Source: Adhaeribacter pallidiroseus
GTDB taxonomy: Bacteria; Bacteroidota; Bacteroidia; Cytophagales; Hymenobacteraceae
Assembly (NCBI RefSeq): GCF_003340495.1
Contig: NZ_QASA01000001.1
Location: forward strand, 2,914,001-2,978,000
Direction: 5' to 3'
Length of the DNA stretch: 64,000 nucleotides
Shown: piece after piece, positions 10,212-61,970 of the stretch
Layout: each line of letters opens with the position of its first letter
How positions within the stretch are numbered: the stretch's first letter is position 1
Program-made: the position numbers and the translations under genes
The notes under the pieces: model-generated
What the model was told of the DNA's origin: nothing
The model's database searches: none
What the model saw: only the letters and a program-made list of their open reading frames with translations

Positions 10212-10673
10212 ACAACTTTTTGTAAATTTTAAAAAATAAGTAGCCGGAGTACCAATTAAGTTTAAATTCCAAAATATCCTTCATCCCTGGCTTATTGGTA
10301 AACAAGCTTTTAAAGCTAAAGGGTTTTTTAAATTTTTTACTTAGAAAGAGTAGTAACCTCAACAAATGCGGAATTCAGGAATGCCAATCTTGCAATAAAA
10401 TTTATTTTTGAAAATAGCTAATAGCCTAAGCCTGGTTACGGCTTGTTATTAGGGCCTTTTCAGGTCTTTACGGATAAACGGCTACTTTCAAAGTAAATCC
10501 TTCTTTATCTCACTTAGCTAGTCTACTGGCTTATTCTTGCGGTTACCGTCATCAGGCAAGCATCGGGTGCAAACAAAACAATTCAGCGGTAAAAATACCA
10601 AATGCTTCCCGCGCGGCTATCTGATTTTAGATCTTGGTTTACTACAGAAAATTACCGCAACCAGTCCGCAAAA
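10212..10673. other. Spacer with a weak cruciform and an AAATTTAAAAAA-family copy
   Basis: A copy of the repeated dodecamer lies at 10324-10335. An interrupted stem (CTAATA 10418-10423 with TATTAG 10447-10452, inner AAGCC/GGCTT) lies about 220 bp past the minus-strand operon that ends at 10674, too far to be called its terminator with confidence. Confidence 0.35.
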
Positions 10674-10907
10674 TTAAAATTCGTACTTGTCGCAGCGGTC
10701 TTCGTACCAGGATTTTAGAAAATCTTCTAATGTATCGAGATAAGAGTTAATTTCATTCGTGCCACGCACAAAATCGGCATCGTATTGTATTTGGGGTTCC
10801 TGGAGTTCTGGATTTAGTACTAACGCATAGGTAATGACCATGGTAGCCAAACGGTTTTCCCACATGGTAACTTCGGGGGTGTTTACCGGATATTGCAAAA
10901 GAAGCAT
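10674..10907 (-). CDS. Small hypothetical acidic protein in the deaminase operon
   Basis: The 77-residue product is acidic and rich in Glu, Asp and aromatic residues (DTLEDFLKSWYEDRCDKYEF at the C-terminus), with no signal peptide or membrane segment. The ATG lies 7 bp after the stop of the nucleoside deaminase gene, which supports a real, translationally coupled gene. No domain is recognised. Confidence 0.65.
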   Translation of the reverse strand: MLLLQYPVNTPEVTMWENRLATMVITYALVLNPELQEPQIQYDADFVRGTNEINSYLDTLEDFLKSWYEDRCDKYEF

Positions 10908-10913
10908 GGTGGT

Positions 10914-11375
10914 TTATTTTTTAAATTTTTGTTTATAGGCTTGGCTAAGCGCCTGGCAAGCTTCGGCTAACACGCCTGTTACCAGGTGCGGCGGAGCAAC
11001 CCAAATACTTATGTCGGGCGCAGATAACAAGGGGTACGCCGAAGAACTGCCGCCCACTTCCGGCACAGTGGTTCCTACTACTACCCGGCTGATTTTATGG
11101 TGCCGGATGACGTAGGAGCACATGATGCACGGCTCATGAGTAGAATAAAGAATACAATTTTGCAAGTCAGCTGTATTAATTGTTTGCCGGGCATCCCGGA
11201 TAGCTTCCATTTCGGCGTGGCAGGTAATATCTTTTTTCAATTGGCCAGCTTCTACTCCCTGACCAATTAGCTTACCTTTTTGTACGACTACTGCGCCTAC
11301 CGGAAAATCGCCTTGCTGTAAAGCTTGCTGCGCTAAATTCAGGCACCAGTGCATCCATTTTTCGTGTTCTTCCAT
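10914..11375 (-). CDS. Nucleoside deaminase (cytidine/deoxycytidylate deaminase family)
   Basis: This 153-residue zinc hydrolase removes the amino group from a free base, nucleoside or nucleotide. The signature is complete: HAEMEAI (zinc His and proton-shuttle Glu) near residues 53-59 and PCIMC (two zinc Cys) near 82-86, separated as in the guanine deaminase/TadA fold. The N-terminal MHWCLNLAQQALQQGDFPVGAVVV is typical of this family. The tail is longer and the tRNA-contact residues of TadA are not obvious, so a guanine- or cytosine-type free-base deaminase is as likely as a tRNA enzyme. The small gene at 10674-10907 follows at 7 bp. Confidence 0.85.
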   Translation of the reverse strand: MEEHEKWMHWCLNLAQQALQQGDFPVGAVVVQKGKLIGQGVEAGQLKKDITCHAEMEAIRDARQTINTADLQNCILYSTHEPCIMCSYVIRHHKISRVVVGTTVPEVGGSSSAYPLLSAPDISIWVAPPHLVTGVLAEACQALSQAYKQKFKK

Positions 11376-11510
11376 CGGCTATTTTTGAAAAATTTTGATC
11401 GGGAGCCAGCAGTATTTTAAATTTTCAGCGGTATTGCCAAAAACTAGCCGGAGCTTTCAATAGAACCGTACAGCCTATCCTGTTTTAATCCGGCAACCTC
11501 TATCCAGGAG

Positions 11511-12425
11511 TTAGTCGGGGTTAAAAGGGGAGTAATCCTGAAAAGTCCAAGTAAAGTTTTTTAAATTTTCCAGTATCACCCACTCTTTTACCTTAAAAAT
11601 CCAGGAAAGAACGGTGTGGTTAGTGGTTGCTATTTCTGAAGGTGCCGGCCATTGAACTTGGGCTGTGCCCGATAGTTGCAAGGTGCGTTGGGCATTAAAA
11701 TCAATAAAAAGCAAACCGGCCGCCGGATAATTTAAAAAATTACCCAAGGTATTGTACATGCCGTTGCCCACGTAATCGGGAATGCGTAAAGACGTAGCAT
11801 TTATAACTTCAACAAAACCCGGATTACCACCCCGGTGCGAGGTATCCATATCATGCTGGTTGTTGCTGCTGCCCACATAAAAAGTATCGGCCGCTGTTAT
11901 CCAGTTTTGTAGCTCCTTGGTCAGGATGGTTCCGGTAATGGCCGCGGGTGAGTAAATACTTTTGGCCGTTTGTTCGCTAGTTCGACGCTGGATGTATTTG
12001 GGGCAGTTAACGTACGCTTGTTTTATGGTAATTAGCAATTGCGCCTGCTTTCGGAAAACCTGACCATTTACCCGGTAGCGGCGGCGCGTGCTTGGTTCGA
12101 TAAAAAGCATTCCGATTGCGGCTTGCGCCTGTATATTTTTCCAAAAAATATCTGCCGGATTAGCGTGCAAATCCCTCTCATCCAACACCAGCCTTTGGTC
12201 ATCGATTACTTTTATAAAACCGGCGCTCCCCGCCAGAATAGAAGTCCAAACCTGACCGCTGCCATCCTGAGTGCTCACCATTACAAAAGTTTGTTGAGCT
12301 ATAAATCTATCGGCCCTAGGAGCCAAGTAAGGAACGATCAATCGGGCATTGCGGCCGGCCGGCAATGCTGCTCCTGTTTTTTGCTGCATTTCTAATTCAC
12401 CGGAATGATAAGGAGAAGCTGCCAT
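11511..12425 (-). CDS. Pyridoxamine 5'-phosphate oxidase-like flavoprotein
   Basis: The 304-residue protein contains the split-barrel FMN-binding fold: FVMVSTQDGSGQVWTSILAGSAGFIKV (residues 47-73) and IGMLFIEPSTRRRYRVNGQV (about 102-121) are the usual FMN-contact strands, and a second related half (VEVINATSLRIPDYVGNGMYNTLGNFL, LLFIDF) follows, so two barrel halves are present. The CPKYIQRR motif near residue 140 is common in bacterial PNPOx-like proteins fused to or near ferredoxin reductase domains. No reductase domain is present here. The true substrate is unknown; the gene stands alone. Confidence 0.8.
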   Translation of the reverse strand: MAASPYHSGELEMQQKTGAALPAGRNARLIVPYLAPRADRFIAQQTFVMVSTQDGSGQVWTSILAGSAGFIKVIDDQRLVLDERDLHANPADIFWKNIQAQAAIGMLFIEPSTRRRYRVNGQVFRKQAQLLITIKQAYVNCPKYIQRRTSEQTAKSIYSPAAITGTILTKELQNWITAADTFYVGSSNNQHDMDTSHRGGNPGFVEVINATSLRIPDYVGNGMYNTLGNFLNYPAAGLLFIDFNAQRTLQLSGTAQVQWPAPSEIATTNHTVLSWIFKVKEWVILENLKNFTWTFQDYSPFNPD

Positions 12426-14824: not shown

Positions 14825-15066
14825 TACAAATGTTCTTGGCTTAAATAAATTTAATAAGTGATTGGATGTAAATTTATAAATAAGACACAAGTATAATGCT
14901 AAAAGAAGCTACTACATTGCCTTGCTAATTAGGCTATTATAATTTATTTTAAAAGTAGACAAACTCTTTCTAAAATTACATTTCCTTCTTTTCAGGTTTA
15001 TATAATCCGAACATATGGAAGGTAAAATAAAACGATCGGGATGTAATTTTTTAAATTTTAAAAATC

Positions 15067-16731: not shown

Positions 16732-16855
16732 GCAGCACAGATTCGTAAACCGGGTGCGCTCGGGCCAACCGGTTATGGGGAGTACTGCATTTGCTACAAG
16801 TGGATAATAAATTTAAAAAATTCTGCCATTAGTAATCATAAAATTCTAAATTACC

Positions 16856-17898: not shown

Positions 17899-18081
17899 CT
17901 TTTTTGGTTAAAATCTGAATTAAACACGATTAAAAATTTAAAAATTAGTTTCTTTTCCCGCTGCGGTTTTATATGTTTTGAGTAAGAACATCCTCTTCCT
18001 ATCCCCAGGGTTTAGGTAAATTTAAAAAATTAAAATTATTGCCTGATCAACGAAAAACGCTTTTTCTAAAACTTTAAATTT

Positions 18082-20542: not shown

Positions 20543-20932
20543 ATGTTCAAAAATAGCCATGCATTTAGTGGTTTTTCGGTCGATGATCTGGAAAAAGCCA
20601 AACAATTTTACAGCCAGGTGCTGGAACAGGAAGTTACAGAAGATAACACCATGGGCTTGCTGCAATTGCACTTGGCCGGCCATACCCAGGTGTTAATTTA
20701 CCCCAAGCCTAACCACGAACCGGCTACTTTTACCATTCTTAACTTTCCGGTTGATAACATTGACGAAGCCGTGCAGGAATTAAAAAAACGGGGTGTTGTT
20801 TTTGAAACCTACCAGGAAGAATACTTACAAACGGACGAAAATAATATTTCCAGGAGCAGCCTGGTAGATGTGGCCTGGTTTAAAGATCCGGCCGGTAATA
20901 TCTTGTCGGTTTTGCAGACAAAAGAAGCTTGA
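20543..20932 (+). CDS. VOC-family protein
   Basis: This 129-residue VOC domain contains [21 protein letters not shown] at residues 10-30 and the terminal [16 protein letters not shown] motif. It resembles small bleomycin-resistance/glyoxalase-like proteins. The stop codon is immediately followed by a dodecamer copy at 20932-20943, so the repeat begins inside the stop codon itself. Confidence 0.85.
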
Positions 20933-21274
20933 AATTTAAAAAAATCCGGTTACCAGGCTTGGTTCTAAAATAGCTGACGCGTAATAATAGATTCCAGGCC
21001 ATCCTGTTTATACGCGTAACAAAAAAGATGTTAGCAGGTCAGTTTTAACTTCTCAGATTATTATCTATTACAAAATTAATAAACAGTTAGTTGAAATTTT
21101 CACACGCTTCGACAATAGACAGAAGCCATCTAAATTGAAAGTGTAAAAGGAAACACGTTGCCTAATGGGTATAGAAATCCTTGCTTCGCTCCAGTTTTTG
21201 CATATACTACCCGTTAACGATCATTGTAACGAGATAATAACAAACCATAGATAATAATTAAAAAATAGAACTAT
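20933..21274. other. Spacer before the RibD-like gene
   Basis: It contains an imperfect inverted pair of ACGCGTA words near 20977 and 21013 and a CCGTTAACG word at 21211. No ORF or terminator of quality is visible. Confidence 0.35.
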
Positions 21275-22432: not shown

Positions 22433-22451
22433 GCCGAAAACAAAAAACAGC

Positions 22452-25901: not shown

Positions 25902-28382
25902 ATGAAAAAGTTATTTACTGCTTTTTTTAAATTTTTGATCATGGTTAACCTGGTTTGCCTGGTGCTGCTTTTAAGGGTGAGCCCTGCTTCCGGATTGCCG
26001 AAAAATTTAAAAATCTCTTCTCTGGAAGTTAATAAAAACAAGGTTTTTAGCTTGGATTCTACTAATGAGTCTCCGGTTGTTCTTCAAAGGCCCGCAAACC
26101 AAACCTTAATGCTCAACACCAGCTTTTACTTTGCGGCCGGCGCGTTTACCGACTCTAATAGCTCCGGCCAGCTTACTTATACCGCGAGCCGAACCGACGG
26201 CACTGCCTTACCGACGTGGTTAAAGTTTAATCGCCGTCACCTGAGTTTCCGGGGCATTGCGCCTGCAACAGCTATTACCGTAAATGTCCGGATTACGGCT
26301 ACGGACCCTCATCAAGCTACGGCAAGTACTACTTTTCGCGTGCGGGTTCAGCCGGCCGAACCCGTTGAAATAACCGGCGAGTTGCGAAAGTGGCACAAAA
26401 TAACGTTTACCTTTGCCGGCCCTTTAACCAGCGAGTTAGATTCTATAAATCCGTTTTTAGATTATCGCTTAAACGTAATTTTTAAAAAAGGGACCCGCCA
26501 GGTAATCGTGCCGGGCTATTATACCGCCGATGGTAAATCTTCCGGCACCGGGGCAAATTATGGCAACAAGTGGCGAGCGCATTTTACCCCCGACGAAACC
26601 GGAGAATGGACCTACCAGGTGTCGTTCCGGACCGGTTCCGAACTAGCGATAAGCACCTTTGCGTACCAAGGCCAGCCGGTTAGTTTTGATAATTTAAGCG
26701 GAAGCTTTACCGTAGAAAACTCCGATAAAACCGGTCGGGATTTCCGGGCGCAGGGTCGTTTGCAATACACCGGTAAACATTACCTGCAATTTGCCGAATC
26801 GAAAAAGTATTTTTTAAAAGGCGGTGCCGGCAGCCCGGAGAATTTTTTAGCTTACCGCGATTTTGATAATACCTACAGCCAGAAATCAACCGCAGATTAC
26901 ACCAAGACCTACGCCGCCCACATCCGCGATTGGAAACCCGGTGACCCGGTTTGGCGGGGTAACAAGGGTAAAGGCATTATTGGGGCCATAAATTATTTGG
27001 CCAGTAAAGGCATGAACTCGGTTTATTTCTTAACGCTAAACGTAAACGGCGACGGCCAAGACGTGTGGCCCTGGATTTCGCCGACGGAAAAGTTGCGCTA
27101 CGATGTTTCTAAACTAGCACAATGGGAAACCGTTTTTTCACACATGGATGAGCTAGGCCTGATGTTGCACGTAATTACGCAGGAACAGGAAAACGACCAA
27201 TTACTGGATGGTGGCAATTTAAAAACCCAACGGAAATTGTATTACCGCGAATTGATAGCCCGCTTTGGCCACCATTTGGGCATCACCTGGAACTTGGGCG
27301 AAGAAAACACTAATACCAATCAACAGCGCAAAGCGTTCAGTTATTATCTCCGGTTCCTTGATCCTTACAAAAGTCCGATTGACGTACACAGTTTTCCAGA
27401 AGCTAAAAACTCGGTTTTCACCCCTTTACTGGGATACAAAAATATGGAAGGCGCCTCGCTCCAAATCGCTAAAATCGCCGAGGCGCACCAACAAACCCAG
27501 AATTGGGTAAATCAATCAGCCAATAGCGGGCGCAACTGGGTCGTAACTTTAGATGAAATTGGTCCTTCTTACCGCGGTGTTTTGCCCGACTCCCAGGATT
27601 ACGCGCACGACCTGGTGCGAAAACAAGCTTTATGGGGACATTTAATGGCCGGGGGTGGCGGCGTAGAATGGTATTTTGGGTACCGCTATGCCCACTCCGA
27701 TTTAACCGCCGAAGATTGGCGCTCCCGCAAACACCTATGGGAATTAACGAACAATGCCCTGTGGTTTTTTAACCAATACCTGCCGTTCTGGGATATGAAA
27801 AGCGCCGATACGTTAACCACCGCAACTACGGATTATTGTTTGGCCGCGGCCAATAACGTTTATGCTATTTATCTACCAACGGGCGGAACCACCGACTTAA
27901 ACGTAGGCAGTAGTTTCGGGAATTATCAGGTACATTGGTTTAATCCCCGCACCCGAAAAGAGTTGCAAAAAGGTTCGGTGTTACAGATTCAGGGCACGGG
28001 TTGGCAATCTATTGGGGTGCCGCCCCAAAACGACGGCCAAGATTGGGTTTGTTTAGTAACCCAAACACCGGTTGATTTTTCGAGAAATGAAACAGGTACT
28101 ACTAATGCTACATTAACCCAAAGCCCCGCAAACAGTTTTTCGCTGGCAGTTTACCCCAACCCTGTGCAGGATTACCTTACTATTCAAACTAACGCCACCC
28201 AAAACTCTCCCCTGGAAATTACCCTGCTGGATGTAACCGGAAAACAGATATTAAATCAAACGGCTTTACCAACGTTGAATAAGCCTACCTTACTAAATAT
28301 CCGTTCCTTAATGCCTGGTGTTTATTTTTTGCGGGTAAAACAAGGAGCCGCTTTTCTGAATCAGAAAATAGTGAAATATTAA
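25902..28382 (+). CDS. T9SS-exported DUF5060/DUF4038-like glycosidase candidate
   Basis: I use the ATG at 25902 (826 residues); a TTG three codons upstream is the only alternative. A signal peptide comes first. Residues about 65-150 form a cadherin-like/putative Ig (He_PIG) domain (RPANQTLMLNTSFYFAAGAF). A DUF5060 domain follows near 155-265 (EITGELRKWHKITFTFAGP). A TIM-barrel-like region spans about 275-640 (GNKGKGIIGAINYLASKGMNSVYFLTLNVNGDG; HLGITWNLGEEN, whose Glu pair could be catalytic; RNWVVTLDEIGPS). The last 80 residues are a type IX secretion sorting domain (LAVYPNPVQDYLTI; GVYFLRVKQGAAFLNQKIVKY). It should be released outside the outer membrane and act on a polysaccharide. A dodecamer copy codes for part of the signal peptide. 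Confidence 0.8.
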   Translation: MKKLFTAFFKFLIMVNLVCLVLLLRVSPASGLPKNLKISSLEVNKNKVFSLDSTNESPVVLQRPANQTLMLNTSFYFAAGAFTDSNSSGQLTYTASRTDGTALPTWLKFNRRHLSFRGIAPATAITVNVRITATDPHQATASTTFRVRVQPAEPVEITGELRKWHKITFTFAGPLTSELDSINPFLDYRLNVIFKKGTRQVIVPGYYTADGKSSGTGANYGNKWRAHFTPDETGEWTYQVSFRTGSELAISTFAYQGQPVSFDNLSGSFTVENSDKTGRDFRAQGRLQYTGKHYLQFAESKKYFLKGGAGSPENFLAYRDFDNTYSQKSTADYTKTYAAHIRDWKPGDPVWRGNKGKGIIGAINYLASKGMNSVYFLTLNVNGDGQDVWPWISPTEKLRYDVSKLAQWETVFSHMDELGLMLHVITQEQENDQLLDGGNLKTQRKLYYRELIARFGHHLGITWNLGEENTNTNQQRKAFSYYLRFLDPYKSPIDVHSFPEAKNSVFTPLLGYKNMEGASLQIAKIAEAHQQTQNWVNQSANSGRNWVVTLDEIGPSYRGVLPDSQDYAHDLVRKQALWGHLMAGGGGVEWYFGYRYAHSDLTAEDWRSRKHLWELTNNALWFFNQYLPFWDMKSADTLTTATTDYCLAAANNVYAIYLPTGGTTDLNVGSSFGNYQVHWFNPRTRKELQKGSVLQIQGTGWQSIGVPPQNDGQDWVCLVTQTPVDFSRNETGTTNATLTQSPANSFSLAVYPNPVQDYLTIQTNATQNSPLEITLLDVTGKQILNQTALPTLNKPTLLNIRSLMPGVYFLRVKQGAAFLNQKIVKY

Positions 28383-28591
28383 CCAGCCTACACCTGTTTT
28401 TTTAAATTTTTCGGCAGCGATGCTTTGGTGATGAAGAGTTGTGCGGAGATAAAGCCCAGTTCGTACCGGTTACTGCCTGTAATTAGGTTTATTCTGGGGT
28501 TTAAAATTTAAAATTAGGCGCGAATGAATCTTTATTACTAATTTATAGCCCGCTTCTGAGCTAAGATTTACTCCGTGATTAAAAGCCTACT

Positions 28592-33977: not shown

Positions 33978-33992
33978 AACGCTTTTTAGCCC

Positions 33993-34002: not shown

Positions 34003-34020
34003 TGAAATAGTATCTTTAGA

Positions 34021-41786: not shown

Positions 41787-44354
41787 TTATTTCGCTTCCG
41801 GCACTTTCGTCTCCAACACGTATTTTTTTAATTCTTCGGCTTTCCAGGGTACTACCCGGCCTTGGGAAGTTAAGCGCGTAGAACCAACGGTGCGTTTTCC
41901 GATGGGGCCGGCGTTGTTTCCCCATTCGTTGCGGATGTAGGTTAAAATAGCCGTAATGGACGCATCGTCCATAGTAATATGAGCCGGCATCACGGGTAAA
42001 ATTTCGGGCTTATCATACACTTTACCGGCTACTTCCACGGGGCCTTCCATGCCGTGCAACACAATTAAAGCCAATCGTTTTTCGTCGCCCAGCACCCAAT
42101 CGGAGCCGGCCAAAGGTGGGGCAAACCGGCTCATGCCGGCCCCATCGGTACCGTGGCACCCGGCGCAGGTAGTCAGGTAATGCTGGCGCCCTAGGGCATA
42201 TAGCTGTTGTTGCTCTTCGGTGAGCACACTTTTTTGCGTTGTACTTATCTTATTTGATTGGGCACTATGGCCGGGCCACTGGAACAAGGCGGCGAAGGCT
42301 TCTAAACGTGGTGCGTCTACTTTACCCGCTGCTTTCTGCATAATACCGGGAGCTTTGGGGAGGTTAATTGGGGCCATTTTACCAGCTCCTCCTCCGATGG
42401 ATAATCCGGTAATAATGGCTTTTTGCCGCCAGCCAAAATCCTGATCTTTTTGATCCAACAAAGCCAGCAGGCTGGTGAGTTCTCCTGGTTCTCTTTTCCG
42501 GATAACGGCGGTAGCTAGCATTTCCAGGAATATTTCTTTGGCAGGCGAGGCTTTTTGCCAATTCGGCGCGTTCCAGAGGGTTTGTAAAAAAGCAAATTCC
42601 TGGTTAGCCAAACTGCTTAAAACAGCATCCCGGATTAAGGCTGACTCGCCGTAACGATCGCTGATTGTGGCTAATAAAGGATGCGCCGTTGCCCCATTCA
42701 GCGATGAGGCGGATAGACTTATTTGTAAAATTTGTTCTGCGGGAGCATCTGCCACTATTTGTCGCAATTTTTGTTCAAAGCGAGCTTGTACGGCGGGATC
42801 AGCTTTAGCTAAAGGTTCCAATAACCGGACGGCTGTGGTACGGACTAAGGCATTATGATCGGAAAGTAAGCTTAGTAATACTTCGGGTTGACTTAGTTTT
42901 AAGCCATCTAAGGTCCACAGGGCATGAAATCGCCCTAGCGGATTACTACCAGTAGTAGCTAAACTTGTTAAAGCTGGTTCGATACCTTTATCGTTACGCT
43001 CTACCAGTAAGCGTTGCGCCATATCCCGGTACCAACCATTGCTATGGGATAAATAAGGAATTAACGCGGCAGTAGACTTCTCGGAAAGTTTAACAGGTTT
43101 GAAAGGACGCCAGTTTTCCGGTACTATGCGCCAGATGCGCCCGCGATGCACCGGCTGTACTAATTTGCGTGTAATAGTTTGCTCCCGCAAGTACGGGGTA
43201 ATGTACGCACTGTGTTGTACTAAGCCGCGGTACATGTCGGCTATGTATAAAGCTCCATCAGGCCCGTTGGCCAGGTGCACTGGCCGGAACCGCTCATCGG
43301 AGGAAGCTAAAAACTCTTTGCCTGGGTGCGGATCATGAGCGGTGAGCAGCAGACCATTTTCTTCTACCACGTTGCGCTTGATTAAATTACCCGAAGGTTC
43401 GCACACAAAAACATTGCTATAGAACTCCTGGGGCAAAGCATGACCCCGGTAAACCAGCGGCGAGCAGGCGGCCGTAAATTCTAACAGTTTTCCTTCTTTA
43501 TCCAGGGTGCCGGGTATGTAGCCCCGGTTAACGGCCGGGTTGGGCCGGATGGGATAAATGCGCCGGTCCACGGTTAAGCCGTGATCGATGCCGGTGGTAG
43601 GTTTATGGTTTTTATTCCGACCGAGATAATTTGGCGGAACCAGATCGGCGTGCAGCTGCGACCAGTTATAGTTGTAATATAATCGCCCTTTATCGTCGTG
43701 GCTAATGCCCCACTGGCCTCTGAATTCGGTACTATCGCGCTCCCATTTTCCGTTTAGTAAACGGTAACGAAACCGGGATTTGGCATTGTAATACCAATTA
43801 TCCGGATCGCGCCATAAACCGTTTCCGGAATGCTCGGGCAAAGGGCTGCCGGCGTAAACCGAATCCAGCAATGTTTTAGAATCGGCTTTCAGATCGTTAT
43901 TCTGATCCTGGGTCAGCCATAAAGCACCATTTTCGGCTACTAAAGCGCCGCCCGGTACTAAAGCTAAAGCTCGGGGCATCACTAGGCTATCGAGGTAAAT
44001 GGTACTTTTATCCATCTTGCCATCGTAGTTGGTATCTTCGAGCACCGATACGCGGCCAATAGGATCTTGTTCGCCGGTTCCGTCGATGGTGGGCATAAAA
44101 CCGCGCATTTCCACGGTCCAGAGCCGGCCATCCGGATCAAAGGTTATAATTACCGGGTCCTGCACCAAGGGTTCCGCAGCAACCAACTGAATCTTTAAAC
44201 CAGGTTCTACTTGAAAGGTCGCTAATTCCTCGGTGGGCGTATGAGGGGGTGAGGGACCTTCTTCCGGCTTGTTGGTAATTTTAGGATGGGCGCAGCTAAT
44301 TAGCCCACTCAGGCCGGCACTAAACCAGCAAAATTTAAAAAAAGGCTTCCACAT
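41787..44354 (-). CDS. Lipoprotein dehydrogenase with fused cytochrome c (TIGR02604 type), copy 2
   Basis: The 855-residue paralogue of the protein at 30031 has the same order: lipobox LISC (Cys 21), propeller (LKIQLVAAEPLVQDPVIITFDPDGRLWTVEMRGFMP; GPDGALYIADMYRGLVQHSAY), HEAT-like helices, then a cytochrome c domain with heme motif CAGCH near residue 729 and FAPPLAGSDWV after it. The extra length lies mainly in the helical part. The N-terminus includes a dodecamer copy (44331-44342) encoding FFKF. It is the probable electron-transferring oxidase of the cluster. Confidence 0.85.
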   Translation of the reverse strand: MWKPFFKFCWFSAGLSGLISCAHPKITNKPEEGPSPPHTPTEELATFQVEPGLKIQLVAAEPLVQDPVIITFDPDGRLWTVEMRGFMPTIDGTGEQDPIGRVSVLEDTNYDGKMDKSTIYLDSLVMPRALALVPGGALVAENGALWLTQDQNNDLKADSKTLLDSVYAGSPLPEHSGNGLWRDPDNWYYNAKSRFRYRLLNGKWERDSTEFRGQWGISHDDKGRLYYNYNWSQLHADLVPPNYLGRNKNHKPTTGIDHGLTVDRRIYPIRPNPAVNRGYIPGTLDKEGKLLEFTAACSPLVYRGHALPQEFYSNVFVCEPSGNLIKRNVVEENGLLLTAHDPHPGKEFLASSDERFRPVHLANGPDGALYIADMYRGLVQHSAYITPYLREQTITRKLVQPVHRGRIWRIVPENWRPFKPVKLSEKSTAALIPYLSHSNGWYRDMAQRLLVERNDKGIEPALTSLATTGSNPLGRFHALWTLDGLKLSQPEVLLSLLSDHNALVRTTAVRLLEPLAKADPAVQARFEQKLRQIVADAPAEQILQISLSASSLNGATAHPLLATISDRYGESALIRDAVLSSLANQEFAFLQTLWNAPNWQKASPAKEIFLEMLATAVIRKREPGELTSLLALLDQKDQDFGWRQKAIITGLSIGGGAGKMAPINLPKAPGIMQKAAGKVDAPRLEAFAALFQWPGHSAQSNKISTTQKSVLTEEQQQLYALGRQHYLTTCAGCHGTDGAGMSRFAPPLAGSDWVLGDEKRLALIVLHGMEGPVEVAGKVYDKPEILPVMPAHITMDDASITAILTYIRNEWGNNAGPIGKRTVGSTRLTSQGRVVPWKAEELKKYVLETKVPEAK

Positions 44355-44524: not shown

Positions 44525-44570
44525 AAAATTTACTCCCCGATTCTTTTGCAAGAACCGGGGAGTAAATTTT
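44525..44570 (-). terminator. Terminator after the Tat-type Gfo/Idh/MocA gene
   Basis: Arms AAAATTTACTCCCCG (44525-44539) and its complement (44556-44570) form a 15-bp stem extended inside by TTCTT/AAGAA around a TTGC loop with one mismatch. It lies 9 bp past the stop at 44579 (minus strand). Confidence 0.8.
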
Positions 44571-44578
44571 TAAATTTT

Positions 44579-46482: not shown

Positions 46483-47502
46483 TTACGATTCCAGATACCA
46501 AACTGCTTCTGGGGGGATGGTAATAGAAACCAGATCGCCTTTTTTATAATTACCATTTTCAGTTCTTACTTTTAATTTTATTTTAGATAGTCTTACTTCT
46601 ATTTCGTAATAGGCGCCAAAAAAAGAAACTTGTTCTACTTTTCCCGGTAGTTCAGGAGCAAGGGCGGGTGTTATTTTTAAATTTTCGGGCCGTGTGAGTA
46701 AGCTTTTTTTCAAATAAAGCGGAGTGCCCATCATGTGAGAAAAAGATTTTGCCCGGGCAGCGGGTATTAGATTATAGTTGCCGAAAAGCCCGGCGGCGTA
46801 GGCATTTACCGGTTGGTGGTAAATTTGCGTGGGCGTACCTTGCTGAATAATTTTCCCGGCTTGCATCACAATAATTTCGTCGGCCCAGGGCAGTGTATCC
46901 AGTGGATCGTGAGAAATCAGAATGCAGGTAATTCCTAACAACGCCCTTACATCTTCAATTACCGTTTTTAAAATATTTTTATGAATACTGTCTAGGTTCG
47001 AGAACGGCTCGTCGAGTAATAACAAACGCGGGGAAGAAAGCACCAGGCGCGCTAAAGCAATGCGTTGTCGTTCCCCGCCCGATAAATGATCGGTGCGCCG
47101 GGAAAGTAAATGCGAAATTCGGCAAACTTCGTATAGATTTTCGGCGGTGGCAGGTTCTAATTTATTGGCGTACTGTAATATTTGCTCGACCCGTAAAAAC
47201 GGGGGCAACTCAAATTGTTGCGACAAATACACAATACCTGGGTGGCCCGGTATTAAATGTTCCTGCGGACCTTTAACGCGTTTCTGATCCAACCGAACTT
47301 CCCCGGAGCTGGGCTGCACCAAACCCGCAATGGTTTGCAACAAAGTACTTTTACCCGAGCCTGTTTCGCCCGCAATGGCTAATTTACTAAATTCTGGCTG
47401 GGTAAAACTTATATCCTGCAGCACTTGGTTACCGGCTTCCCGCAAATAGATGCGGGAAACTTGTAAAAAATTAGCAAGAGTTGGCGTTGCTTTGGTGGGC
47501 AT
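46483..47502 (-). CDS. ABC transporter ATP-binding protein with TOBE-like end
   Basis: From the ATG at 47502 the product has 339 residues (a TTG two codons upstream is the alternative). Walker A is GETGSGKST (about residues 45-53), Q-loop YLSQQFELPP near 92, signature LSGGERQR near 140, Walker B LLLLDEP near 160 and the switch His in LISHDP near 194. The C-terminal 90 residues resemble a TOBE regulatory domain, as in ferric, spermidine, sulfate or sugar importers (CUT1/POTF type). No permease or binding protein lies beside it, so its partner genes are elsewhere. Confidence 0.85.
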   Translation of the reverse strand: MPTKATPTLANFLQVSRIYLREAGNQVLQDISFTQPEFSKLAIAGETGSGKSTLLQTIAGLVQPSSGEVRLDQKRVKGPQEHLIPGHPGIVYLSQQFELPPFLRVEQILQYANKLEPATAENLYEVCRISHLLSRRTDHLSGGERQRIALARLVLSSPRLLLLDEPFSNLDSIHKNILKTVIEDVRALLGITCILISHDPLDTLPWADEIIVMQAGKIIQQGTPTQIYHQPVNAYAAGLFGNYNLIPAARAKSFSHMMGTPLYLKKSLLTRPENLKITPALAPELPGKVEQVSFFGAYYEIEVRLSKIKLKVRTENGNYKKGDLVSITIPPEAVWYLES

Positions 47503-47886
47503 AGTCAAATTATTAAATCTTATGAAATAGTTGGTTTAGCCCGAAAGTATACTGTGCGTGTGAGAAAAAAAGCACCAAACTATATTTTAATGGCAAACAC
47601 TACAGAAACTTGTCTTTACGAATGGAAGCTGGCTTTGCTGTGTTTATTATAAAATAGCCATGGATGAGGAATAATCAAACTTCTACCATATACGCTGCCT
47701 TGTAAAACAGAGATTCGGTATCTCGGGGGTGGTGGCTTTAATAAACTTTTCTGGCCTGGGGCATCTTTGTTTTTTAAATTTTTTATTTAAAATCTTCTTT
47801 ATTTTAAGCTATAAATTTATGAGTAAGGCTGGCATTAGTCCGGAATGCTGTTAATCTTGCGGCTTAAATAACTACTCTTTTCTGAT
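47503..47886. other. Divergent spacer between the ABC ATPase and esterase genes
   Basis: It contains a dodecamer copy at 47770-47781. No clear promoter boxes or small genes are visible. Confidence 0.35.
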
Positions 47887-49467: not shown

Positions 49468-49593
49468 GTACCGGGAAGGCTATTTTTGTAACCAGCTAAC
49501 CATTTCTAAATCCTTTTAATTTCCGGAAAGGCCATGAATTTAGTAAAGCTCTGATTTTTTTAAATTTTTACGTACTTAGCTGTTTTTAAGAGC

Positions 49594-50931: not shown

Positions 50932-51444
50932 AAGCTATACACCTGGGTTTATTTATAAAGAAGGCGCAAAACTAGGTCGTAGGTTTTAGAAAAAAAAATC
51001 TAATTTTATACAATAAAACAAGATAACCGAATAATACTATCCCGAAATAAACTAAATCAAACTTCCGCAAGAGCCAAATTGCGGAATTATTAAAAGTAAA
51101 ATAATCCAAAATTACTAAGCCTTACTGGTTAGTTCACCGTTAATAATGGAGGCAAAATTTAAAATTTACACCGGTTAATAGCTCCGGTAAATTGTAAACC
51201 CGGAGTAGGATAGTAAGAAAGTAAAAAATTTAAAAAAAGCCATTCTTCTGCATTTGAAGAATGGCTTTTTTTAAATTTTTTACTCCAAAGGTAAGTACTG
51301 ATTTTGACTCCGATTAAAACGTAATTAAAGGTAATTGCTCTTTTTTACTTTTATGTTCTGATATTGCCGTACTCTTGCAAAAATCATGGATATGCCCTTT
51401 CATTTTAAAAGTTTACAAACGAACAGCCAGTAATAAATATCTAC
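50932..51444. other. Spacer holding the terminator of the TonB receptor gene
   Basis: Besides the long palindrome at 51220-51284, the region is AT-rich without ORFs. It must also contain the promoter of the M23 gene near 50940-51000. Confidence 0.4.
51220..51284. terminator. Perfect 29-bp-arm palindromic terminator built from two dodecamers
   Basis: Arms 51220-51248 and 51256-51284 are exact complements; the loop is TGCATTT. The core GCCATTCTTC is flanked on both sides by a dodecamer copy in opposite orientation. It lies 160 bp past the stop of the receptor gene (minus strand). Confidence 0.8.
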
Positions 51445-53889
51445 TTAATTACCACCGGCCCGGTTTAATTCTTCCAGGTTGGTGTTGCGTTTTTTCGCTT
51501 CAAATTTTTCTCCTTTGTTAAAGTTATAACGCAAATTCAGGCGCACACTTCTTTGGGCAAAATACTGGTTTATTTTATTTACATTGTTGTCTACGTTTGC
51601 CGTACCCGCAAAGCGACGGGTCCGGAAAATGTCGGTAACGTTAGCCGAAACTTCCAGCTGTTTGTTCCAGAACGCTCTTTTTAAGCCAGCATCAACCGCC
51701 CAATTTTGCTTTATCTGATAGGCCGCGTATACCCGGGGACCTTGATAATCTACGTTTACTTCTAACCGGATAGCGCGGGGTAATTGAATGTTGTTGGAAG
51801 ACCGGGCGTAAGTAAAAAGCTGATTATTGTTTATAACCTGGTTTTGCTCCGGTATCGCGATTCGGTACGTTTGGTAACCCACGGTAAAGTTATTGTTCAT
51901 GTCCCATTTAGGCGTAATTTTAATAGGTGCTACTAAACCTGCGTTTACATCGTTAAATTTATCGCCGTTGCGCTGCTGAAACACCATGGTGTTATTTTGA
52001 TTATTCTGCACCGGTACTTCGGCCATTACATCTTGCGTAGTAGAATAACCAATGGTTAAAATATAGGTGTCTTTCAGGGATTGCGTCATTTGAAACGAAT
52101 GCGTGTATTGCGGGCGTAAATACGGATTACCTTGGGCCGACGTATACGGATCGATGTAGAAGATGAACGGATTTAAATTACCGTAGTAAGGGCGGTTAAT
52201 GCGTCGGCTATAATTATAAGTAATTTTATAATTTTTATTTACCTGCTGCATCACAAACAAACTCGGAAACAGGTTTAGGTAGTTGCGGGTATTTACCGAA
52301 TCCTTGGTTACAGATTTACCTTCGGCAATTGTTTTTTCGGCGCGCAAACCTCCCTGTATTTTCCATTTTTCGCCCAAACTGGTACTAAAATTTGTATAAG
52401 CGGCGTAAATATTTTCGCGGTACAAAAAATGGTTGCTGCGTTTTTCATCTACAATTTGTTGATTATCGGCTACTTTAAAAAATGCCAGCTCGTTATCCGA
52501 CACTACATGGCTGGCTTTCGCCCCAACTTCCAGTTTGGTATTTTTAGAAAAAGGTTTGGTATAATCTACCTTGGCCGAGTAAATGCTAAAGCTGCTAGGG
52601 TTATTGCTAGCTAAATCTACCAAGCTGTCGGGCCGGGTTGGCGTTAAATACCGGAATTGATTGGCGTAAGTGGCCTCATCGTGGTCGTATAACCGAACAT
52701 AATCCAGGTCCGCGGATAAGGCAGTTCCCAGCGTGTCCAGTTTACCTACATAGTGGGCGTTTAAGGTGCCGTTCGCAAAAGTACCTTTAAGCAAATTATT
52801 ATTGCGTACCCATTTGTTATTGGCCGCTTCAGTATGGTATTCGAGCAAGGTTGAGTTAAAATCACTGGTCATATCCTGGTACACCAGGTTAGCCATTACT
52901 CCCACACTGTGTTTCGGAGAAAAATCGTAATCGGTTCCTAAGCGGAGCGATGGCGCGATCCGAATGGCTTTTTCTTTGGCCGATTGCGTTAATTGCGTGC
53001 TGCTTTCGGGCGAGTTAAACTCGCGGTATAACCGGGCATCCCGGATAAAAATCCGACGCGCTACATCGGCATTTACAAAAGAATTCCATTTGCCTTTTTT
53101 AACATTAACGTTACCACCGGCGGAGTAAGCGTGCCAGTTGTTGTACTGATAACCGCCGTACAAACTACCGTTTACGCCACTCAAGGTGTTCTTTTTTAAA
53201 TTTATGTTTATAATACCGGCGGTACCTTCCGCATCGTATTTAGCCGATGGATTGGTGATTAATTCCAGATCTTTTAAGTTTTCGGCGGCCATGCCTTGCA
53301 ACATGGTTTGCAATTCTTTACCGGATAAGTAAGTTAGTTTTCCGTCAATCATAATCCGGACCCCCGATTTACCATTAAGTTGAATATTACCATCCTGGTC
53401 CACAAAAACGCCCGGCGATTTAAGCAAAACCTCGTACGCCGTATTACCCGTCGACAGGGCGGTACCCTCCACGCTTACTACTATTTTATCCGGATGATTG
53501 ACGATGGTAGGACGTAATGCCTGTATATTTACTTCTTTTAACAGCTTGGTGTCTGCTTGTAAAACAATTACGCCAAAATCTTTACTGGCATTGGCTATCA
53601 GGTCAAAAGCTGGCGTTTCCAGCGTTATAAATCCTAGCGCACTAATACGCAACCGGTAAGTTCCGGCTGCGGCCACTTTAATTTTAAAAAATCCTTCCGC
53701 CTCGGAAGCGGTGCCCGTAACAACGGTACCATTGGCGGCTTGTACGACCGCTACCGTAGCATAACCAATAGCGGTTCCTTTTTCATCTTTTAAAATTCCG
53801 GTTAATCCATGGTCAGATTGAGCTACTACGGGAGGTTGGCCCACAATTATGATTAAGGCCATTAGTAAAAGTTTAAATACATTTTTCAT
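51445..53889 (-). CDS. TonB-dependent outer-membrane receptor (beta-barrel 3 type)
   Basis: I start at the ATG at 53889 (814 residues), directly before the signal peptide KNVFKLLLMALIIIVGQPPVVAQ; an ATG nine codons upstream is less likely. A carboxypeptidase-regulatory-like domain covers about residues 30-110 (LTGILKDEKGTAIGYATVAVV). A plug-like region follows at 120-235 (TAYEVLLKSPGVFVDQDGNIQLNGKSGVRIMIDGK; DLELITNPSAKYDAEGTAGIINI). The rest is an outer-membrane barrel ending in LNLRYNFNKGEKFEAKKRN. Receptors of this branch are often found without a SusD partner, as here. The ligand is unknown. Confidence 0.85.
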   Translation of the reverse strand: MKNVFKLLLMALIIIVGQPPVVAQSDHGLTGILKDEKGTAIGYATVAVVQAANGTVVTGTASEAEGFFKIKVAAAGTYRLRISALGFITLETPAFDLIANASKDFGVIVLQADTKLLKEVNIQALRPTIVNHPDKIVVSVEGTALSTGNTAYEVLLKSPGVFVDQDGNIQLNGKSGVRIMIDGKLTYLSGKELQTMLQGMAAENLKDLELITNPSAKYDAEGTAGIININLKKNTLSGVNGSLYGGYQYNNWHAYSAGGNVNVKKGKWNSFVNADVARRIFIRDARLYREFNSPESSTQLTQSAKEKAIRIAPSLRLGTDYDFSPKHSVGVMANLVYQDMTSDFNSTLLEYHTEAANNKWVRNNNLLKGTFANGTLNAHYVGKLDTLGTALSADLDYVRLYDHDEATYANQFRYLTPTRPDSLVDLASNNPSSFSIYSAKVDYTKPFSKNTKLEVGAKASHVVSDNELAFFKVADNQQIVDEKRSNHFLYRENIYAAYTNFSTSLGEKWKIQGGLRAEKTIAEGKSVTKDSVNTRNYLNLFPSLFVMQQVNKNYKITYNYSRRINRPYYGNLNPFIFYIDPYTSAQGNPYLRPQYTHSFQMTQSLKDTYILTIGYSTTQDVMAEVPVQNNQNNTMVFQQRNGDKFNDVNAGLVAPIKITPKWDMNNNFTVGYQTYRIAIPEQNQVINNNQLFTYARSSNNIQLPRAIRLEVNVDYQGPRVYAAYQIKQNWAVDAGLKRAFWNKQLEVSANVTDIFRTRRFAGTANVDNNVNKINQYFAQRSVRLNLRYNFNKGEKFEAKKRNTNLEELNRAGGN

Positions 53890-54530
53890 GGTTTTAGAGA
53901 AGTAAAGCTTAGTCATCGATAATCTGTCTGATTTTCAGTTAATTTTTCTGATACCCGCCAGTTGGGTTTAGCGAGCTCAGGTGGAAGAACAACACAAATA
54001 TAACATAAGGTACTATGCAAAGCAAGGTACTAAGTAACAAATAGTATTATATACTTGATAAAACCCAATTTAAATCAAATAGAGGGAGTTTTTAATTAAA
54101 AATATTTTTAAAAAGATTAATTGATCCGGAATAATACTTGGCATCAACCAAAATTAAAGAGTACCAAATGACGAATTGTTCCGCTGTAACAGAGCTGTGA
54201 GTTGTTAGCTGGCAATAAGAATGGATAAAATTAGAACCCGAAATTATAGCTAAGGGCTATAATTTATACTAAATAAAAATTCATCCTAATTACATGAACT
54301 TGGCATTTAAAAACCTATTCTCTTTAATTATCTTATTAATACAATTTTAAATTAAATAGATTCAATTTTTAAAATTTAAAAAATCTAATATTACTTTTCA
54401 AAAACATGATGCAGCTTTATCTAATCTAATTATTTGCCTCTTCATTTTGTAATTTAATCCATTATCTATAAATTACTTACTTAAATAACTTCTTAAGTTT
54501 TTCATATTTAAATAAAGAAATAAATTATCT
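53890..54530. other. AT-rich divergent spacer
   Basis: A 640-bp AT-rich region separates the receptor and GAF genes. A dodecamer copy lies at 54372-54383. No ORF, RNA gene or hairpin is convincing; two promoters are expected. Confidence 0.35.
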
Positions 54531-55280: not shown

Positions 55281-55488
55281 GCCTAAATCATTCGAAAAAC
55301 AATCTTAAGGCCATTGGTTTTCATAATTGATACGAATAAGGCAATGCGTCTGAGGCCAACATCTTAACAGCTAAAAATAAAGTTGGAAAGAGTAAATTAT
55401 TAGCAAGAAGAATAAAATTTAAAAAAAGGCAACTTTTCTCTTAAATTCAGGCTAAAAGCTTCGGTAGATTGTCACAAAGCTTTTTCTC

Positions 55489-56565: not shown

Positions 56566-56635
56566 ATAGGCAGCGCTACGTTGCCAAAATTTAAAAAAAC
56601 AGCTGTTTTCGCGAAGAGAAGGGCTTAGATGGTGT

Positions 56636-59057: not shown

Positions 59058-59399
59058 GGTTGTTTTTTATTTAACGGATGAAGCCCAAAAGTAAGCAATT
59101 TATTTATTTGCCAAAGTATCAGCCAGCAGCCGTGCCATAAACTAACTAACTGTTCACTATTATTTATTTGTTCGTTGTTGGTATAAATAATTTTAAATAA
59201 TTAAAACGCAAAATAGCCTGTTCGCTGCAAAGATTTCGGTGAAATATTGATTACTTACTTTCATTATTAAACACGTGCGGGCTTTCTCCATTTTACGTTC
59301 TTACCATTTATAACACGCTTTTAAAACAACCGTATGGGCCAGTTATAAACTATTACTACCTTTACTTTTATTTTTTAAATTTTAATCAGGCTCCGGTTC
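59058..59399. other. Divergent spacer with repeat words
   Basis: The inverted copy of the 12-mer AACAACGAACAA lies at 59168-59179, and a dodecamer copy at 59371-59382, 18 bp before the MarC-family start. Promoters of purK and the MarC-family gene are expected here. Confidence 0.4.
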
Positions 59400-60017: not shown

Positions 60018-60348
60018 TCCACAGTCCACAGGTTAAAGTTTTTAGTTGGTAGTTGTTGGTTGATGGTTTAACACCTCCGTTTTTAAATTATTTGTGCTCC
60101 ACAAGCCATAATTTAATTTTTTAAATTTTCGGCGCGTCAGGTGAGTTTTTGATATACTAAAATTTAAAAATAAAGGAATCTTCAACTTTAGACTTTTAAT
60201 TAGTGCCTACAGCCCATAGTTTTAAAACCAGAAACCAGAGACCATACACAATCAACCGCAGACTATGTACCATCCGACTGTGTACTACGACCCCTCAACT
60301 GTGGACTGTGGACCATGGACTATCGACTAAAACTATTACCTTTGCCGC
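60018..60348. repeat. Spacer bracketed by inverted GTCCACAGTCC words
   Basis: GTCCACAGTCCACAG at 60017-60031 is repeated inverted at 60299-60313 (15 bp exact). Inside lie degenerate variants (GACTATG, GGACTGTGTACT-like words at 60260-60290) and a GTTGGTAGTTGTTGG stretch near 60050. A dodecamer copy is at 60117-60128. Confidence 0.5.
60337..60344 (+). promoter_or_regulatory. TACCTTTG box immediately before hemE
   Basis: The TAnnTTTG match ends four bases before the hemE ATG. If it is used, the mRNA would be leaderless or nearly so. No -33 TTTG is visible upstream, where the inverted repeat lies. Confidence 0.3.
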
Positions 60349-61404
60349 ATGGAGTTAAAGAATGATTTAATATTACGAGCCGCCGCCGGCGAACCAACGG
60401 AACGGACTCCCGTCTGGCTCATGCGGCAAGCGGGCCGGATTTTACCGGAATACCGGGCAGTGCGGAGCAGCGTAAGTGGCTTTAAAGAATTAGTAGAAAC
60501 CCCCGAGCTCGCCTCCGAAGTAACCATTCAGCCGGTAGATATTTTGGGCGTAGATGCCGCCATAATTTTTTCGGACATTTTGGTGGTACCGGAAGCCATG
60601 GGCTGCACCTACGAGATGATCGAACAACGTGGGCCCATTTTTCCGCAAACCATTCAAACTCCCGATGATGTTAAAAACTTACGCGTAGAAGAAGCCCATT
60701 TTCAACTGCACTACGTGTACGAAGCTATCCGGATAACTAAACGCGCCTTAAACGGCCGGGTACCTTTAATTGGGTTTGCTGGCGCTCCCTGGACTATTCT
60801 GGCTTACATGGTGGAAGGCAGCGGTTCTAAAACATTTTCCAAAGCCCGTAAACTTCTTTACACTTCGCCGGAATTAGCGCATACACTACTCGATAAAATT
60901 ACCACGGTTACCATTAATTACCTGCAAGCCCAGGTGGATGCCGGAGCCGCGATGTTACAAATTTTTGACTCTTGGGCAGGCATTTTGCCGCCGGCGCACT
61001 ACCACGAATTTTCTACCCGGTATATTGCCCGCATCTGCGATGCCATTACAACGGTGCCCGTTACTGTTTTTGCCAAAGGCGCTTTTTTTGCCTTGTCTGA
61101 ATTTGCCCAATTAGATTGTCAAACCATTGGTTTGGACTGGAACATGAATATAGCCGATTCCCGGGCCGCGATTGGCTTTAACAAAACTTTACAAGGTAAT
61201 TTAGATCCCTGCGCTTTATACGGTTCTTTCGATAATATCCGGCAAGAAACCATCGCCATGCTGCAAGCTTTCGGGCCTACCCGGCACATCGCTAATTTAG
61301 GTCACGGCGTTTACCCCGATACCGACCCCGATAAGGTGAAATGTTTTGTAGATACTATAAAAGAATACAGCAGCAAAATAAACGAGCCACAATCTGTAAC
61401 GTAG
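60349..61404 (+). CDS. hemE: Uroporphyrinogen decarboxylase
   Basis: The 351-residue enzyme removes four carboxylates from uroporphyrinogen III in heme synthesis, in the cytoplasm. The family signature [17 protein letters not shown] (residues 19-35) and [23 protein letters not shown] (about 141-163) are complete; the catalytic Asp is in [12 protein letters not shown]. The C-terminal [12 protein letters not shown] and [15 protein letters not shown] complete the barrel. Standard length. Heme need is consistent with the two cytochrome c proteins in this window. Confidence 0.95.
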
Positions 61405-61649
61405 CGCTTATTTTGGCGATTTCGGATTAAGCCTACTTGTTAGCGCCTAGATAAATGGAACTCATAACATTTGTTTTAATTCACCTGATAACTCCAGCGT
61501 TTGGCTTAGCAAGCTATCTTTTTTAAAAAAAGGAAAATTTTAAAAGAATTAGTTGAAAACCCTCCTCTAATCGACTTTTTTTTATTTTTAGTATTTACGG
61601 CGGAATACTGCTAATTATTTTAACCGAAATATTTTGGAAATGGTCCGCT

Positions 61650-61835
61650 ATGGCTTCTTTAGGTGCATTTTTCCTGATAGTTCCGGGTATGCTTATGATG
61701 GGCTTAATTGCTTACAGAAACTATAAACTCAGGTATATTTCTGTTTACCATAACTTCGCCTTTAAAAGCGGATTATTTTATTGTTTTATGATGGCGGGTA
61801 TTTTTTTGGTTGGTAACCTTTTATATAAAGGTTAA
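61650..61835 (+). CDS. Small two-span membrane protein
   Basis: The 61-residue product has two hydrophobic segments (about residues 3-21 and 42-58) joined by a basic, aromatic loop (YRNYKLRYISVYHNFAFK). The frame stays open upstream to 61554 and encodes another hydrophobic stretch (GGILLIILTEIF) without an ATG, so the real protein could be longer with an unusual start. No family recognised. Confidence 0.5.
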   Translation: MASLGAFFLIVPGMLMMGLIAYRNYKLRYISVYHNFAFKSGLFYCFMMAGIFLVGNLLYKG

Positions 61836-61916
61836 ATACTCGTGCAGTTATTTGATAAACCAAACCTTTAATTTACGGCGGATTTTGTATTAACTCCATC
61901 ATGCGCAAAGTAAATC

Positions 61917-61970
61917 TTATCAAAATTTAAAAAAGCCGCTTTTTAAAGCGGCTTTTTTAAATTTTGATAA
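61917..61970. terminator. Perfect 26-bp-arm bidirectional terminator
   Basis: Arms 61917-61942 and 61945-61970 are exact complements with a two-base loop. The GC core is GCCGC; each arm contains one dodecamer copy (61923-61934 and 61953-61964). It lies between convergent genes at 61835 and 61978 and serves both. Confidence 0.85.

Follow-up and report, generated by a model that had tools for sequence, protein, structure and literature searches.

The 64,000-nucleotide stretch of Adhaeribacter pallidiroseus DNA analysed here, called the window below (positions 2,914,001-2,978,000 of contig 1 in a genome, G000, of 6,425,974 bases and three contigs), carries many dispersed copies of a dodecamer, AAATTTAAAAAA, most of them between genes. 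A preliminary description of the window had reported at least 23 copies; all 23 coordinates proved exact, and three more copies, at 8761, 10917 and 11557, bring the number to 26. The claimed excess over chance holds as well. In 100 dinucleotide shuffles of the window the mean was 0.60 and the maximum 3, and Markov models of orders 1-5 fitted to the window predict 0.54-1.12 copies; the expectation climbs to 2.9 at order 6 and 8.6 at order 7 because those orders already hold most of the dodecamer. According to our own ORF and hexamer gene caller, which defines genic and intergenic status throughout, 21 of the 26 copies are intergenic and five genic, close to the figure of about 20 intergenic copies first given, and a count by eye puts 11 of the 21 no more than 60 bp from the end of a flanking gene, in keeping with the described proximity to starts and stops. 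The two pairs of copies described as terminator arms belong to real inverted repeats. The copies of the dodecamer, of its 13-base form AAAATTTAAAAAA and of a variant, together with these two repeats, are as follows.

8761..8773, minus strand: AAAATTTAAAAAA, inside gene 8628-10211
10324..10336, minus strand: AAAATTTAAAAAA, tandem intergenic
10917..10929, minus strand: AAAATTTAAAAAA, 3' end of gene 10914-11375
11557..11569, minus strand: AAAATTTAAAAAA, inside gene 11511-12425
15047..15059, minus strand: AAAATTTAAAAAA, 8 bp beyond the stop end of gene 15067-16047
16809..16820, plus strand: 12-mer preceded by T, intergenic
17933..17945, plus strand: core variant AAAATTTAAAAAT
18018..18029, plus strand: 12-mer preceded by T, intergenic
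20932..20943, plus strand: 12-mer preceded by G, overlapping the final base of gene 20543-20932
25923..25935, minus strand: AAAATTTAAAAAA, divergent intergenic; within ORF 25893-28382 if a TTG start is used
26002..26014, plus strand: core variant AAAATTTAAAAAT
28398..28410, minus strand: AAAATTTAAAAAA, 15 bp past a stop
29969..29981, minus strand: AAAATTTAAAAAA; matched by an exact core at the orthologous position in the sister species, the alignment having a small gap within it
37026..37038, plus strand: AAAATTTAAAAAA, intergenic
37363..37374, plus strand: 12-mer preceded by G, intergenic
44330..44342, plus strand: AAAATTTAAAAAA, 5' end of gene 41787-44354
44566..44578, minus strand: core variant AAAATTTAAAAAT
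46673..46685, minus strand: core variant AAAATTTAAAAAT
47770..47782, minus strand: AAAATTTAAAAAA, divergent intergenic
49556..49568, minus strand: AAAATTTAAAAAA, intergenic
51220..51284, unstranded: terminator-like inverted repeat, 29-nt arms, 100% complementary, two cores in the arms
51225..51237, plus strand: AAAATTTAAAAAA, outer arm of hairpin 51220-51284
51267..51279, minus strand: AAAATTTAAAAAA, opposite arm of the same hairpin
53192..53203, minus strand: 12-mer, inside gene 51445-53862
54371..54383, plus strand: AAAATTTAAAAAA, divergent intergenic
55414..55426, plus strand: AAAATTTAAAAAA, intergenic
56586..56598, plus strand: AAAATTTAAAAAA, convergent intergenic
59371..59383, minus strand: AAAATTTAAAAAA, divergent intergenic
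60117..60129, minus strand: AAAATTTAAAAAA, intergenic
60159..60171, plus strand: core variant AAAATTTAAAAAT, 42 bp from the copy at 60117
61917..61970, unstranded: terminator-like inverted repeat, 26-nt arms, 100% complementary, two cores in the arms
61922..61934, plus strand: AAAATTTAAAAAA, outer arm of hairpin 61917-61970
61953..61965, minus strand: AAAATTTAAAAAA, opposite arm of the same hairpin

Of 122 dodecamer copies in 464 kb of the source genome, 84% have an A directly before them, and run-length tables show a discrete peak at exactly three Ts, flanked by A runs of 4-5 and 5-7. Versions of AAAATTTAAAAAA that carry a single C or G at one of positions 2-13 number 0-4 copies each (0.3-0.8 expected); the same count gave 104 copies of AAAATTTAAAAAA itself and 44 of its T-ending form. 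From the preceding A, the T3 peak and the intolerance of substitution we define the core as AAAATTTAAAAAW. Because its order-3 background did not model run length, an unsupervised expectation-maximisation refinement ended in a broad class of words in which A and T runs alternate, and its site count was not used. In 224 kb called intergenic, AAAATTTAAAAAW occurs 237 times against 6.1 expected from an order-3 Markov model, so that the excess over shuffled intergenic sequence anticipated in the preliminary description is present; the mirror pattern WAAAAATTTAAAA occurs 97 times against 6.0, in part because it overlaps longer core forms. Since the mirror pattern also exceeds its expectation, the order-3 model underrates A/T runs generally, and the contrast between a word and its reverse is fairer. 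Our main control was the mirror word, which for the dodecamer is its letters read backwards (the reversed word). A genome-wide count, which had been proposed as a check, gave 1,476 copies of AAATTTAAAAAA (728 forward and 748 reverse) and 327 of the reversed word (161 and 166), a 4.5-fold excess beyond simple composition, since the reversed word matches the original in base composition and, read backwards, in its dinucleotides. Extrapolated from a sample, the chromosome total of the core is about 1,840.

In the preliminary description a comparison with relatives had also been suggested, and it confines the expansion mainly to two species. The eight genomes of the genus hold 1,476 copies in G000, 874 in its sister species G298, 117 in G303 (control 58), 118 in G317 (control 69) and 17-32, near their own controls, in the other four, G307, G312 and G322 among them; 192 other genomes of the same family hold 0-17 each. 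These counts indicate an expansion common mainly to G000 and G298. The relaxed word AAAWTTTWAAAAW occurs 2,928 times in G000 (control 1,318) and 4,132 times in G298 (control 1,955). In a set of 296 genomes of the phylum that includes G000, the highest of the 295 others has 97 copies (46 and 51, in G289), most having fewer than 20 as judged by eye. In one other family of the class (f7), some genomes reach 40-97, about twice their own control, and a mild preference for the dodecamer extends beyond the genus. Among seven sampled members of the genus, A6 runs are equally common (258-287 per 100 kb) and A5T5 is not elevated in G000 or G298; T5A5, which includes the TpA step, reaches 30.6 per 100 kb in G000 and 49.5 in G298, compared with 0-11.2 in the remaining five. 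The T run in G298 is three to five bases long, with 89 copies of AAATTTTTAAAAA, 65 of AAATTTTAAAAAA and 90 of AAAATTTAAAAAA in 720 kb. A literature search by exact words gave, among the matches listed, no title on a bacterial chromosome motif; searches on Adhaeribacter intergenic motifs found nothing, and those combining gyrase, Bacteroidetes and nucleoid found nothing related by title.

Along the genome (864 kb), convergent intergenic regions are the densest, with 1.88 copies per kb; tandem ones have 1.21, divergent ones 0.95 and genes 0.08. After stops (1.124 Mb) the density is 5.9 per kb in the first 10 bp and 3.0 in the next 10, falling to about 1.0 at 90-240 bp and to 0.2 at distances over 800 bp. 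The 45 bp preceding starts have 0.6-1.4 per kb, compared with 1.5-1.9 at 90-180 bp. In tandem regions the two orientations number 68 and 58 for the 13-mer (864 kb), and 45 and 20 for the 12-mer (464 kb). After trimming of the ends, the interiors of the 565 genes that are 600 nt or longer contain 44 cores (25 and 19), compared with 5.0 (2.6 and 2.4) in synonymous-codon shuffles; for the mirror word the figures are 2 and 1.4. Copies in genes favour the sense orientation (50 versus 14), which may come from codon constraints, and summed over the replichores 188 copies run along and 143 against the GC-skew strand. Together, the strand balance, the in-gene excess and the intergenic spread indicate that the signal appears to act on double-stranded DNA and not to be tied to transcripts. 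The two small contigs, taken to be plasmids, have no core in 166 kb (100,000 of the 103,146 bases of one and all 66,047 of the other); about 49 would be expected at the chromosomal density, and 164 AT runs of at least 13 bases are present. Intergenic density is lower beside genes of atypical codon usage (0.75 versus about 1.3 per kb), with no such trend within genes. One region of contig 1, at 416,579-450,171, is free of cores for 33.6 kb; its second half (about 429-450 kb) contains several low-scoring gene calls of lower GC and 8 kb without calls, and is possibly a recently gained island.

Around 262 intergenic copies of the source genome, we found weak base biases alone (for example, A in 52% at -9), no longer repeat common to the flanks and no GC-rich palindromic unit. 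Thirty-seven copies lie in stretches that align to the sister species: eight have an exact core in register and three more have one within about 10 bp (by eye), the remainder differing by a few letters or short indels, with several too poorly aligned to judge. No clean 13-bp insertion against an empty site was seen among the 37, and to judge from these alignments the copies appear to arise in place through small changes. In a set of 48 copies in aligned stretches (11 in genes, 30 intergenic, 7 at edges), six are identical between the species. Identity of motif and flanks was 0.88 and 0.73 in genes, 0.76 and 0.59 between genes and 0.69 and 0.65 at edges; for other AT words it was 0.85 and 0.80 (n=174), 0.71 and 0.65 (n=152) and 0.67 and 0.74 (n=14), respectively. 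A conservation of the motif above its flanks is suggestive, not decisive.

DNA wrapped or bent around a protein shows GC content that is helically phased on either side of a centre, and we observed such phasing around the cores in a sample of about 18% of the source chromosome (1.124 of 6.26 Mb) and 1.12 Mb of the sister species. Upstream of the 262 cores located between genes, AT content has peaks near -9, -20 and -30 with dips between; upstream of 467 other AT runs of 13-15 bp it is flat. Maxima of GC content lie near 20, 31, 42, 52 and 63 bp from the core middle on each side. Phasing was tested with the period set at 10.75 bp over the zone 20-66 bp from the core middle, overlapping words being counted once, and with 500 circular-shift nulls, so that the lowest attainable p is 0.002. 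In the source genome, the core (n=261) gave p=0.002 upstream and 0.032 downstream, and the T4/T5 words (n=87) gave 0.006 and 0.002; in the sister species the core (n=160) gave 0.002 and 0.146, and the T4/T5 words (n=260) 0.178 and 0.008. Both flanks are thus below 0.05 in the two sets of the source genome, and one flank only in the two sets of its sister. All four sets have the same phase, with GC maxima at -62.8 to -64.3 and +20.2 to +21.1, and in none of them is there phasing in the zone 67-113 bp (all p at least 0.19). Intergenic AT runs of 12-16 bp other than these words (n=703 and 782) had amplitudes of 0.010 or less and a lowest p of 0.04, their upstream amplitude being about one sixth of that of the cores.

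When the sites of the source genome were divided into halves, the GC maxima (-19.8/+19.4 and -19.7/+20.3) agreed within 1 bp, with p=0.003 upstream in both and 0.043 and 0.12 downstream. Upstream phasing was present whatever the orientation or distance to a stop (p=0.003 in three subsets) and was kept even at the 130 sites whose nearest stop is over 80 bp away (p=0.003). Mirror symmetry of the flanks at zero shift gives r=0.63 (best at zero shift) and 0.48 in the two sets of this genome. The upstream profile of in-gene sites correlates with the intergenic one (r=0.46, reached by 3 of 1000 nulls); the downstream profile does not. Folding was also considered as a source of the pattern. Stable structure follows the 58 sense copies that lie no more than 40 bp beyond a stop (t=-5.0); at the 130 sites distant from stops the folding excess is small (t=-1.6 and -0.4), and over all 262 it is t=-2.5 and -3.4 upstream and -5.2 and -5.7 downstream. 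We judged hairpins unlikely to cause the phased flanks, though the whole set has some folding excess, because upstream phasing persists far from stops.

An architectural site, of the bent-DNA or nucleoid-protein kind, was among the possibilities raised in the preliminary description, and the phased GC content supports this one. In our reading, to which we assign a probability of roughly 0.5, the dodecamer is the centre of a chromosome-wide, double-stranded site for a putative DNA-bending or wrapping protein that reads it largely through DNA shape. Such a protein would bind at the core, would be symmetric and would wrap about 130 bp, and the sites might help to organise or supercoil the chromosome near gene ends; service as terminator hairpin arms would be a secondary use of some copies. 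As the partner, another nucleoid protein is more likely than gyrase. We also put forward, tentatively and with less confidence, that the chromosome may contain some 2,000 (counting the 13-mer) to 4,000 (counting all words of the A-T-A dialects) nucleosome-positioning-like elements, both figures being extrapolations from samples, in which a sharp A/T dyad, with phased flanks extending over about 130 bp, would be wrapped around a symmetric protein dedicated to it, close relatives using other dyad dialects with the same wrap phase.

Several observations weigh against a wrapping site centred on this word. The 10.75-bp period was set after similar periods had already been seen in the same data, which leaves the extent and the agreement of phase as the only near-independent tests. 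Downstream phasing in the source genome is weak (p=0.12 in one half, as given above, and 0.11-0.41 in three position subsets), mirror symmetry at zero shift in the sister species is low (r=0.24 and 0.14), and sites near stops in that species have no upstream phasing (p=0.47). The slight upstream signal of other AT runs, at p=0.04, has the same phase as that of the cores. In-gene sites are faint, with p=0.024 upstream and 0.39 downstream in the source genome (n=69) and 0.080 and 0.46 in its sister (n=122); two of their far zones, where overlaps were not removed, reached p=0.006 and 0.046, which we took as noise. The mirror word is to a degree phased too (upstream p=0.010, n=41, in the source genome; downstream p=0.024, n=35, in the sister species), its GC maxima being displaced by about 2-4 bp from those of the core. 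The flank pattern is consequently a property of A-T-A words as a class, the core being their commonest form in the source genome. The core is also sharper than would be expected of a site read by shape. Finally, no protein partner was found: the source genome has one HU-family gene, as do most members of the genus, and an AT-hook search gave no match anywhere, controls included, and is hence uninformative.

That the cores are strong sites for DNA gyrase, with about 130 bp wrapped round two arms and placed near gene ends to absorb the supercoils of transcription, we regard as unlikely, although the flanks give it some standing. The gyrase motif of E. coli is described as a symmetric 130-bp pattern, its central part spanning -16 to 19 and its flanks repeating every 10.75 bp as far as about 66 bp, and as too long and degenerate for standard motif finders, becoming visible only after mapping; its sites are enriched downstream of highly transcribed operons (PMC6379681). 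Like this motif and the strong site of phage Mu, the cores appear to have an extent of about 130 bp, a GC periodicity of about 10.75 bp in two flanks and symmetry (in the source genome), and they prefer DNA downstream of genes, being densest 0-20 bp after stops. In phage Mu, T5+A3+ tracts occur at six places on the plus strand (seven counting both strands), and the annotated gyrase cut is 11-41 bp away from two of the six, an observation made post hoc. Against this, the core has a sharp 13-bp centre that is all A/T and so lacks -4G/+8C, the central cleavage determinant that gyrase has in common with Topo IV (PMC10117906); the E. coli motif is described in that source as rich in GC and as depleted in AT-rich DNA between genes, the opposite of the intergenic enrichment of the cores; and according to a preprint (PMC12393610), wrapping did not occur on an A/T-rich sequence that contains long stretches of A/T only. 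Moreover, our phase template did not recover the Mu site: the annotated cut ranked 2837 of 36585 positions (z 1.4), and the best position, 17975, about 95 bp from it, was given no weight. For these reasons together we do not class the core as a gyrase site.

Less probable again is that the core serves as a DNA uptake signal and has multiplied because cells preferentially take up self DNA, as happens in Neisseria and Haemophilus. The cores resemble the DNA uptake sequence (DUS) of Neisseria and the uptake signal sequence (USS) of the Pasteurellaceae in having more than 1,000 copies of a sharp short word, both genic and intergenic, in forming dialects between relatives and in the co-option of some inverted pairs as terminator arms (PMC1852404, PMC7811141); their absence from the small contigs also fits. 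ComEC is present in all eight members of the genus, and also in 10 of 14 control genomes, so that its presence is not specific, and another member of the Bacteroidota, Riemerella columbina, is described as favouring its own DNA in transformation (PMC7965970). The core differs from DUS and USS, however, in lacking G and C and in the phasing of both flanks, since two-sided phasing over about 130 bp is not reported for uptake signals in the parts of PMC1852404 and PMC7811141 used here. Neisseria and Haemophilus take up DNA through type IV pili, other bacteria without them (PMC7965970); in the source genome and its sister there is no match to PF00437, the pilus- or secretion-type ATPase, and none above the cut-off in the eight genomes, four of which have weak partial matches.

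A mutational or compositional artefact, that is, a lineage-specific growth of A/T runs in intergenic DNA, would account for words made of A and T only, for their varied run lengths in the sister species, for the 97 mirror patterns found where the order-3 model expects 6.0, and for the f7 genomes with 40-97 copies at about twice their control. It seems very improbable to us: A6 runs are equally common across the seven sampled members of the genus, the dodecamer outnumbers its reverse 4.5-fold, the cores in genes exceed synonymous shuffles, and run growth alone predicts no phased flanks out to 66 bp, ordinary A/T runs having about one sixth of the upstream amplitude.

We give slightly less credence still to the core as a transcription terminator or 3'-end element of which the window hairpins are typical. 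The preliminary description had mentioned a genome-wide terminator or leader part, and this suits a minority of copies: it stands for the sense copies near stops, which precede terminator-like structure, as it does for the paired copies in hairpins, the density peak within 20 bp after stops and the 12-mer orientation in tandem regions (45 versus 20 in 464 kb). It fails for the copies farther than 80 bp from a stop, 130 of the 262 intergenic ones, which have no clear extra structure, and is opposed by the near balance of the 13-mer (68 versus 58 in 864 kb), the density of 0.95 per kb in divergent regions and the enrichment in gene interiors. As a general explanation we rejected it, given the in-gene enrichment and the stop-distant copies without clear extra structure. 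A UP-like promoter element is disfavoured by the lack of any enrichment within 45 bp of starts, the highest density being convergent, and by the in-gene excess over synonymous shuffles; debris of a mobile unit, or a mobile mini-insert, by the absence of a longer common repeat, the weak base biases and well-aligned copies that differ by point changes and short indels, with no clean insertion seen among the 37 copies in aligned stretches, several of which align too poorly to judge.

Two known families of repeats invite comparison. Like REP/BIME elements, some of which are bound by gyrase in E. coli (PMC6379681), the core is intergenic and present in high copy, but it lacks a common palindromic unit around it and occurs also inside genes. 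Like cyanobacterial HIP1 it is a short word iterated genome-wide; unlike the core, HIP1 is a palindrome, GCGATCGC, and has been linked to methyltransferases (PMC4390886).

Other repeats and genes were seen in passing. A second dispersed family, AACGAACAACTAA, has at least 19 matches in the source genome (positions 1-660000 and 2714001-3178000 of contig 1), including window positions of about 12678 (plus strand) and 63238 (minus strand). Among the 19 matches listed, 18 are intergenic, and many lie within a common stretch of about 75-90 bp from AACCTGAGTTTAAGTA to CCAACTACTTA; from its sequence the family looks like a short interspersed repeat of this genome. In another genome (G322, stretches L094-L096) there is a long intergenic tetranucleotide array, (TAAG)n, and a dispersed word, GATCCTTCGACAGGCTCAGGATGAC, in four intergenic places within 60 kb. 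The window has four other strong intergenic inverted repeats, at 49066-49134, 49227-49277, 14102-14151 and 44525-44570, with arms of 32, 22, 22 and 21 nt, respectively. The first three have no core and the fourth touches the core variant at 44566; all four are probable terminators, the longest being alternatively another palindromic element. The region 32400-34900 is low in GC (0.35 at 32001-34000) and without gene calls despite ORFs at 33279-33977 and 34021-34635, and may be foreign DNA. Genes 30031-32346 and 41787-44354 encode PVC-type heme-binding CxxCH proteins (TIGR02604) whose ends resemble cytochrome c, and 25893-28382 a protein with a T9SS sorting domain.

If the dodecamer does mark the centre of a wrap, so sharp and countable a word would allow the sites to be listed from sequence alone and the protein that reads them to be tested, and a change of code between sister species could be followed through it. 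Should the partner be gyrase, the control of supercoiling would be tied to a visible sequence code; should it be a nucleoid protein, a new one would await discovery in this lineage.

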